64,000 bases of DNA from Pseudomonadota bacterium (GTDB lineage: Bacteria > Pseudomonadota > Gammaproteobacteria > Nitrosococcales > Methylophagaceae): positions 3,517 through 67,516 of the forward strand of contig JALIBN010000006.1 in assembly GCA_030576275.1 (NCBI GenBank), in the 5' to 3' direction. Positions 22,447-24,537 of the stretch are shown piece by piece; position 1 is the first letter of the stretch; every line of letters starts with the position of its first letter. The notes beneath the pieces were generated by a model. It was not told where the DNA came from, searched no databases, and saw nothing but the letters and a program-made list of their open reading frames with translations. Made by a program: the position numbers and the translations under genes.

Positions 22447-23319
22447 ATGTCAGAATTAGCCACAACAGCAAAACAAAGACTCGAAATTAATAAATTACGC
22501 AAACGACTTCGCCGTAACGTTGGTCAAGCAATTGCTGATTACAACATGATTGAAGATGGCGACAAGGTAATGGTTTGCCTGTCAGGTGGTAAAGACAGTT
22601 ACACCATGCTAGATATTTTACTGAACCTTCAAAAGCATGCACCCATTTCGTTCGACATCATTGCCGTTAATCTTGACCAAAAACAGCCGGGGTTTCCTGA
22701 ACATGTTTTACCTGAATATCTAGCTTCCATTGGTGTGCCTTTTCATATTATTGAAAAAGACACCTACAGCATCGTTAAAGAGATTGTGCCTGAAGGCAAA
22801 ACTACATGCGGGATCTGCTCTCGTCTCCGTCGCGGGTCCTTATATGGTTATGCTCGTCAAAATGGTATCACTAAAATAGCTTTAGGCCATCATCGTGATG
22901 ATATTATCGAAACGGCTTTTCTCAATATGTTTTATGGCAGCAAACTTAAAGCTATGCCACCCAAATTATTGAGTGATGACAAAACAAACATTTTGATTCG
23001 CCCACTAGCTTACTGCAAAGAATCAGACATTATTCGCTATTCTGATCATCAACAGTTTCCGATCATTCCTTGCAATTTATGTGGTTCACAAGAGAACTTA
23101 CAACGGCAAGTCATTAAAGACATGTTACAAGGTTGGGAAAAACAGCAACCTGGTCGATTAGAAAATATTTTTCGAAGCTTTCAAAATATTTCACCCTCAC
23201 AATTAGCTGATAATGAATTATTCAACTTCAAAGATCTTGAGTTACATAGGCTAGCACCATCGGGCCAAGAAGACGCGGCCCACGATGACAAACAATTTCC
23301 AGCATTATCTAGACAATAA
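22447..23319 (+). CDS. ttcA: tRNA 2-thiocytidine(32) synthetase TtcA
   Basis: [20 protein letters not shown]-loop, [27 protein letters not shown]. Confidence 0.96.
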
Positions 23320-23349
23320 TCACCATAATCTGTTAATCCAATAAGAGAG

Positions 23350-23358
23350 TTATGCACC
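23350..23358 (+). promoter_or_regulatory. Near-consensus DnaA box (TTATGCACC)
   Basis: 8/9 match to TTATNCACA; paired with TTATGCACT at 23899. Confidence 0.45.
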
Positions 23359-23526
23359 AGTAAGGGCCACTATCTCATAACAGTCACAAGAGTCATCGCT
23401 AAGTCATTGAAACTATTACTTAGCGCGCTATCTAGTTGATTTTTATCAATATTATTATAGTGGATGAATTTTAACCAAACTGCGGTAGATTGTTACAAAA
23501 TAATGACTTAGCGATTTGTCGGCATG

Positions 23527-23561
23527 TTACCCACAGAGTTATCCACAGATATTGTGAGTAA
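23527..23561. promoter_or_regulatory. DnaA box cluster: TTACCCACA, TTATCCACA (perfect), and inverted TTACTCACA
   Basis: Boxes at 23527-23535(+), 23539-23547(+) and 23553-23561(-). Confidence 0.75.
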
Positions 23562-23635
23562 GTCTGTAAGTCATTGATCATGAAATTTACGACTCAAATA
23601 GTCACTATTTAGTATCTATTCTTATCAGATTAGCT

Positions 23636-23644
23636 TGTGTAAAA
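23636..23644 (-). promoter_or_regulatory. DnaA box (TTTTACACA, fits TTWTNCACA)
   Basis: Plus strand TGTGTAAAA. Confidence 0.45.
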
Positions 23645-23898
23645 TCTTGCTAAAATAAATATATTGGTCAACGTTCATCGAGATGAAATAAAGACTGCTA
23701 ACAAAGGATTGATCACTTAATTTATTACTATCGTAAGGAGAAAAAAATAATCGGCGACTAGCTGACTAAGTCAGGTCAATGAATCAGATCCAAGCTCAGA
23801 ATGGTCATTTAGAGATAAAAACTGCACTCATAAATATACTTGTAAGCATCAATAAAAATTCACTAAAATTTCGACTTAACACTTGACATCTGAGCAAG

Positions 23899-23907
23899 TT
23901 ATGCACT
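23899..23907 (+). promoter_or_regulatory. Near-consensus DnaA box (TTATGCACT)
   Basis: 8/9 match to TTATNCACA. Confidence 0.4.
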
Positions 23908-24073
23908 TGAGAGTATTTAAAGTAGGAGCCAGTTTTAACTGATCTTTTTCAATTTGTAACGGCTATGATAATTTAATAACTACCTGATTATATTGAAATT
24001 AAACTTAATGGTTAAATTTTGACCATACACTATAGATTGTTACAGATTAAAGACTTAGCGATTTCCCCATAAG

Positions 24074-24108
24074 TTAACCACAGAGTTATCCACAGATACT
24101 GTGAGTAA
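24074..24108. promoter_or_regulatory. DnaA box cluster: TTAACCACA, TTATCCACA (perfect), and inverted TTACTCACA
   Basis: Boxes at 24074-24082(+), 24086-24094(+) and 24100-24108(-). They lie within the inverted repeat ACAGAGTTATCCACAG-ata-CTGTGAGTAACTCTGT. Confidence 0.75.
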
Positions 24109-24150
24109 CTCTGTAAGTCGTTGATCTAGGAAAACCTGAACAATCCTACC

Positions 24151-24537
24151 CTACTTTTGAGGGGTAAAGTCTTCAGAAAATTCCAAGGCATTACCATCTG
24201 GATCACGACAAAAGAAAGCTGCGCGACCAGACTTACTTCTGGAAAACGTCACATTTGCCCCCTCTAATCTTTCAGCTAAAGCATCTAAGTCATCAACAAC
24301 CAATGCAATATGTTTATCTTTTCCGCCATGTTCAGGACGACCTTCCTTTGAATCAGGATTAGGTAATTGCATTAAATGTAATTGCTGGCCTTCGGCATTA
24401 AGATCTAACCAAGCGCCATCAAATGGGAAATTAGGTCGATGTTCATTTAAATGAATATCTAATACGCCGCAATAAAACTTTAAAGCCCGAGCAACATCAG
24501 CCACTAAAAAGCTAGCATGTGCTATTGATTTAATCAT
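24151..24537 (-). CDS. VOC family (glyoxalase/bleomycin resistance-like) protein
   Basis: HASFLVADVARALKFYCGVL...FFCRDPDGNALEFSE. Confidence 0.88.
   Translation of the reverse strand: MIKSIAHASFLVADVARALKFYCGVLDIHLNEHRPNFPFDGAWLDLNAEGQQLHLMQLPNPDSKEGRPEHGGKDKHIALVVDDLDALAERLEGANVTFSRSKSGRAAFFCRDPDGNALEFSEDFTPQK

Follow-up and report, generated by a model that had tools for sequence, protein, structure and literature searches.

A tandem pair of probable DARS-type DnaA-reactivating modules between convergent ttcA and VOC-family genes in a gammaproteobacterium of the Methylophagaceae

The ttcA-VOC gap and its two DnaA-box modules

The window, i.e. the whole 64,000-nucleotide stretch of DNA analyzed here, contains an intergenic gap of 831 bp (23320-24150) between two convergent genes. 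The ttcA gene (+) ends at 23319 and a VOC-family gene occupies 24151-24537 (-), so that both 3' ends face the gap. Open reading frames lying wholly within the gap reach only 36 aa, terminator-like sites were not found there, and promoter-like matches in it stay at the level of shuffled sequence. The gap harbors a direct repeat of 94 nt (23486-23579 and 24033-24126; 86% identity, offset 547 bp), which bears out the duplicated locus between inward-pointing genes that an initial annotation of the sequence had described. In an Rfam search of the region, the only matches were to an unrelated miRNA family and attributable to chance, and comparison of the region with plasmids, E. coli and phages yielded nothing beyond short matches.

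Two perfect DnaA boxes of the form TTATCCACA are located in the gap, at 23539 and 24086. A TTWTNCACA match, TTTTACACA at 23636 (minus strand), is found in the spacer, outside both modules described below. Six further boxes carry one mismatch (23350, 23527, 23553 on the minus strand, 23899, 24074, and 24100 on the minus strand). A recount thus gave the same numbers as the initial annotation, whose "several" GATC sites amount to five. In total, nine boxes with at most one mismatch to TTATNCACA occur in 831 bp against about 1.2 expected from shuffles (P roughly 5e-6, a Poisson estimate from these shuffles); across the entire window, DnaA boxes are not enriched (71 found vs 94 expected).

The boxes are organized in two modules with the same core. 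Each unit shows TTAMCCACA, i.e. TTA(C/A)CCACA (box III), 3 bp, TTATCCACA (box II), 5 bp, and TGTGAGTAA, the inverted form of TTACTCACA (box I). A fourth DnaA box is located at -175/-177, and IHF-like and Fis-consensus sites lie between it and the core; all accessory-site positions were measured from the start of box III. The TTATGCAC sequences noted earlier as landmarks of the repeat turn out to be these conserved fourth boxes, one in each module.

Module 1 extends from the distal DnaA box to the right-hand IHF-like site (23350..23579, +). Its distal box ("IV", TTATGCACC, 23350..23358, +) is found at -177, a conserved position, and is followed by two IHF-like sites on the same strand, TAAGTCATTGAAA at -127 (23400..23412, one mismatch to YAANNNNTTGATW) and TATCTAGTTGATT at -98 (23429..23441, one mismatch), the latter at a position that recurs throughout the class. 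The Fis-type site GGATGAATTTTAACC at -65 (23462..23476) fits the relaxed consensus and has one mismatch to the strict one. The core comprises box III TTACCCACA (23527..23535, +), box II TTATCCACA (23539..23547, +) and the inverted box I TTACTCACA (23553..23561, -), and another IHF-like site, TAAGTCATTGATC (23567..23579, +), is located at +40, where YAANNNNTTGA is conserved. Module 2 (23899..24126, +) comprises a distal DnaA box TTATGCACT at -175 (23899..23907, +), an IHF-like site TAACTACCTGATT at -97 (23977..23989, +, one mismatch), a Fis-type site GGTTAAATTTTGACC at -64 that matches the strict consensus (24010..24024), box III TTAACCACA (24074..24082, +), box II TTATCCACA (24086..24094, +), the inverted box I TTACTCACA (24100..24108, -) and an IHF-like site TAAGTCGTTGATC at +40 (24114..24126, +).

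A motif AATGACTTAGCGAT adjoins the core and is present again upstream in module 1 in inverted form, as ATCGCTAAGTCATT (occurrences at 23395-23408, 23502-23515 and 24049-24062). A related inverted form, CGCTAAGYCATTGAT, is found after the core in some relatives.

Conservation and chromosomal position within the family

The region was matched in 39 of 59 relatives by nucleotide search. A TtcA search of named genomes identified Methylophaga as the closest group, and a Methylophaga sp. MAG with a 99% identical TtcA likewise carries the double module. Two orthologous loci were recognized across the family, both between convergent genes: ttcA and VOC flank one or two modules, the VOC gene being separated from the nearest core by ~34-53 bp; clpA and cobO flank a single module. 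In the window's genome there are exactly three triads, two at ttcA-VOC and one at clpA-cobO. Both sites are thus intergenic and keep their position among relatives, as expected of a DARS. A triad search with variable gaps (10 x 14 = 140 spacings allowed, 78 genomes) gave 126 matches in 61 of the 78 genomes, and two of these matches are second registers of other sites; counted from the listed sequences of this search, the spacing was 3/5 at 123 of 124 distinct sites. The reversed control of the same search gave zero matches.

The accessory sites were compared in 42 ttcA-VOC and 17 clpA-cobO modules. A distal DnaA box in the direction of boxes II and III occurs at -173 to -178 in 33 of the 42 and 16 of the 17, respectively. 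The Fis consensus is matched at about -65 by a palindrome TGGTTA...TAACCA, strictly in 30/42 and in relaxed form in 40/42 ttcA-VOC modules, and strictly in all 17 clpA-cobO modules. IHF-type sites recur at about -98 and -127, YAANNNNTTGA is present at +40 in 38/42 ttcA-VOC modules, and the inverted box I is kept in nearly all modules. Base conservation is concentrated in these protein-site motifs. The initial annotation had named a lack of box conservation in relatives as an argument against its own proposal; the boxes are conserved. A tree of the modules, built from short sequences and given no weight here, splits the ttcA-VOC from the clpA-cobO locus and suggests that several separate tandem duplications may have taken place.

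The window's genome encodes one Fis above the curated cut-off, three IHF/HU-family proteins and, besides DnaA, a shorter DnaA-family protein that is consistent with Hda.

The window's assembly is too fragmented for placing the locus. Chromosomal position was determined in two relatives with closed or near-closed chromosomes (G061 and G062), in which GC skew was sampled in 20-kb pieces. The single contig of G061 (3.135 Mb) has dnaA at 0.16 Mb and dif at 1.99 Mb, and the sign of its sampled skew switches near 0.2-0.6 and 1.99 Mb. Here the ttcA-VOC pair is located at 1.18 Mb, ~1 Mb from dnaA and near the middle of one arm; the other arm carries the clpA-cobO site, at 2.31 Mb. G062 carries the sites at 0.737 and 2.461 Mb, with dnaA at 1.865 Mb; it yielded no dif, and its sampled skew is noisier than that of G061. 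The loci examined showed no perfect DnaA box in the vicinity of dnaA, and oriC itself was therefore not located. The sites are placed between origin and terminus in both relatives. This mid-arm position fits a DARS and excludes oriC in G061 and G062, as the element neither coincides with the origin switch of the GC skew nor occurs in single copy.

Recurrence of the layout beyond the family

Triad matches were found in 149 of 291 genomes sampled from the class, where the spacing among the matches listed is mostly 3/5 with a few cases of 1/5, and in 30 of 150 genomes sampled from the phylum, with looser spacing outside the class. The arm layout was examined in 106 triads from 84 genomes, all outside the family. 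A distal box occupies -182 to -173 in 66 of these 106 cores (equal-sized control windows: mean 0.60, max 3) and is found there on the other strand in none of the 106. The IHF consensus is matched at -101 to -96 in 43/106 (control mean 0.19, max 2; other strand 3/106) and the strict Fis consensus at -67 to -64 in 37/106 (control mean 0.28, max 3). The 84 genomes span many families; they are not phylogenetically independent, and these counts are therefore not to be read as probabilities. The class-wide recurrence is centered near -178 for the distal box, -99 for IHF and -66 for Fis.

Individual genomes display variants of this layout. One relative (L135, G032:C16:10500-29500) has six DARS-type triads, at 658, 3099, 4397, 4927, 6784 and 17842, spread over 17 kb of intergenic gaps; each has a Fis-type site at -64/-65, and most are without IHF site and distal box. 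Another locus (L130, G034:C3:1518800-1520600) shows three degenerate triads at 810, 994 and 1177, every one with a Fis-type site at -64. Their period of 183-184 bp means that each core occupies the place of the next module's distal box. Triad pairs ~1.5 kb apart are present in two genomes of another family of the same order (G039:C2:1364285 and 1365860; G040:C1:3499230 and 3500778), and paired sites thus recur outside the window's family. A TrfA-type plasmid (NZ_CP082977.1, L198 at 1505) has a 3/5 triad without accessory sites, ~210 bp away from the trfA 3' end. The triad alone is therefore no proof of DARS function.

Probable function, alternatives and comparison with E. coli

DARS1 and DARS2 are sites that convert ADP-DnaA back to ATP-DnaA. 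Their common feature is a set of three boxes, equally spaced in both DARS and with box I opposite to II and III (PMC5742627), and boxes I and II support a head-to-head DnaA contact that releases ADP (PMC8682772). Both window modules have this triad with the common spacing and the opposite box I. Judged by sequence, the element has a DARS-type core, is DARS2-like by its candidate IHF and Fis sites, which lie beside the core at fixed positions, and has a layout unlike that of E. coli DARS2. We consider it likely that two DARS-type, i.e. DnaA-reactivating, modules stand here in tandem, resembling DARS2 but with a different arm. Among the three roles originally proposed, the DARS-like one is strongly supported by box order, orientation and the 3/5 spacing shared with E. 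coli DARS1 and DARS2, and the initiation region is not supported.

In such a module, by analogy with E. coli, ADP-DnaA would bind boxes III, II and I. Boxes II and I, 5 bp apart, would place two of these molecules opposite one another, and a head-to-head interaction between them would lead to ADP release. The resulting apo-DnaA could then take up ATP and become able to start replication. IHF, by bending the DNA at about -98, and Fis, at about -65, may together bring the distal arm with its DnaA box (-175/-177) to the core, and this contact could restrict activity to certain times of the cell cycle or to certain growth phases. Against the DARS reading stand gene neighbors unlike those of E. coli DARS1 and DARS2, an arm order unlike that of E. 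coli DARS2, and the plasmid triad beside trfA that has no accessory sites; moreover, the Fis-type site of module 1 is not strict and the IHF-like sites at -98/-97 have one mismatch each.

The main rival is a datA-like or titration role, in which DnaA bound to the distal box and the core around an IHF bend would reduce the free or active DnaA, either through ATP hydrolysis or through mere binding. The arm does follow the plan of E. coli datA (downstream of the glyV-glyX-glyY tRNA genes), where a distal box and a proximal cluster surround an IHF site; here a box of the same direction is found ~175 bp from the cluster with an IHF-type site in between, and tandem copies would add binding capacity. 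The datA region, which inactivates DnaA, however lacks the III-3-II-5-I triad, its essential boxes all point in one direction (PMC5742627), the exact 3/5 spacing would be needless for simple titration, and a Fis-type site is conserved here, Fis being a described activator of DARS2. We therefore regard this role as unlikely; of the datA-like titration site suggested initially, the datA arrangement is absent at the triad, and a titration effect is still compatible with the boxes. A DnaA/IHF/Fis nucleoprotein site with some other task, in chromosome organization or in control of neighboring transcription, appears less likely still. IHF and Fis are general nucleoid proteins, function has been deduced from sequence only, and all four neighboring genes converge on the sites, which would permit a role at transcript ends. 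Yet in E. coli the exact spacing of the DARS triad is of known biochemical significance (PMC8682772, PMC5742627), the neighbors point inward, and promoter-like matches stay at shuffle level.

The element shares DnaA boxes with IHF and Fis sites with oriC, and also the CAGAGTTATCCACAG context; the likeness to the R4 flank of E. coli oriC that had been pointed out initially reflects a DnaA-box context common to both and does not speak for an origin. A similar triad also adjoins the plasmid gene trfA. A chromosomal or secondary origin was nevertheless rejected by chromosome position and could hardly be the explanation: in G061 the pair lies midway between dnaA (~1 Mb away) and the terminus and does not coincide with the skew switch, a second locus is found on the other arm, the situation in G062 is similar, and no unwinding element was identified in the window's element. 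It is just as hard to believe in an intergenic repeat, dispersed or mobile, that has nothing to do with replication, the other objection raised at the outset. The six triads with Fis-type sites in the gaps of G032 would suit such a repeat; the window's genome, in contrast, has only two loci, both syntenic across the family, and the conserved bases cluster in protein-site motifs, and for this genome the dispersed-repeat reading was rejected.

To our knowledge, DARS function is known in detail from E. coli only. Conservation of the DARS2 core has been described for Fis-bearing relatives of E. coli (PMC4245941, PMC8682772). DARS-like sequences have been reported from many proteobacteria in a review (PMC10380432), and the wide occurrence of the core is therefore not claimed as new. 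For the arm layout, its fixed positions across the class and the tandem modules no description was found in the open-licence literature, outside of which the founding DARS papers (Fujimitsu 2009, Sugiyama 2019) lie. We tentatively propose, as a scenario that may well prove wrong, that the fixed composite of a DnaA box at about -178, IHF at about -99, Fis at about -66 and the triad at 0 is a common, probably ancestral, gammaproteobacterial DnaA-reactivation switch, with a rearranged arm in E. coli DARS2, a reduced form in DARS1 and a tandem-duplicated example in the window. If true, the composite provides a sequence signature for locating a DARS-type site in many unstudied genomes, and two questions become testable: what holds the DnaA, IHF and Fis sites at constant distances, and whether the E. 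coli arrangement is younger than the reactivation switch.

The cores of both DARS were taken from E. coli MG1655, where they read, on the reverse strand, TAATACACA TGG TTATCCACA GGAAT AGTGGATAA for DARS1 and TTCTTCACA ACT CTATCCACA GAAAA GGTGAATAA for DARS2. DARS1 (bioD-uvrB, 0.81 Mb) is identical to the window modules in triad spacing and orientation and also has its accessory DNA on the box III side, but it is only ~101 bp long and has other neighbors. It is active in vitro without IHF or Fis (PMC5742627). A weak DnaA-box match (TTTTTAACA, -177) and a weak IHF match (TAACCAGTTAAAA, -99) were seen relative to box III of DARS1 (L033); at these class-wide positions they might be relics. DARS2 (beside mutH, 2.97 Mb) shares with the window the III-3-II-5-I core in identical orientation and spacing, accessory IHF and Fis sites on the box III side, the intergenic location and a place between oriC and the terminus. 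It differs in its neighbors, ttcA and VOC standing here instead of mutH, and the window has two tandem modules. From the core outward, the DARS2 arm shows IHF (two IHF-type matches at -87 and -71, 3 bp apart with two mismatches each, in agreement with the published IBS1-2 separation), then Fis (strict match at -125) and then a DnaA box of opposite direction (-185). The arm in the window runs from Fis (-65) to IHF (-98) and then to a DnaA box of the same direction (-175/-177).
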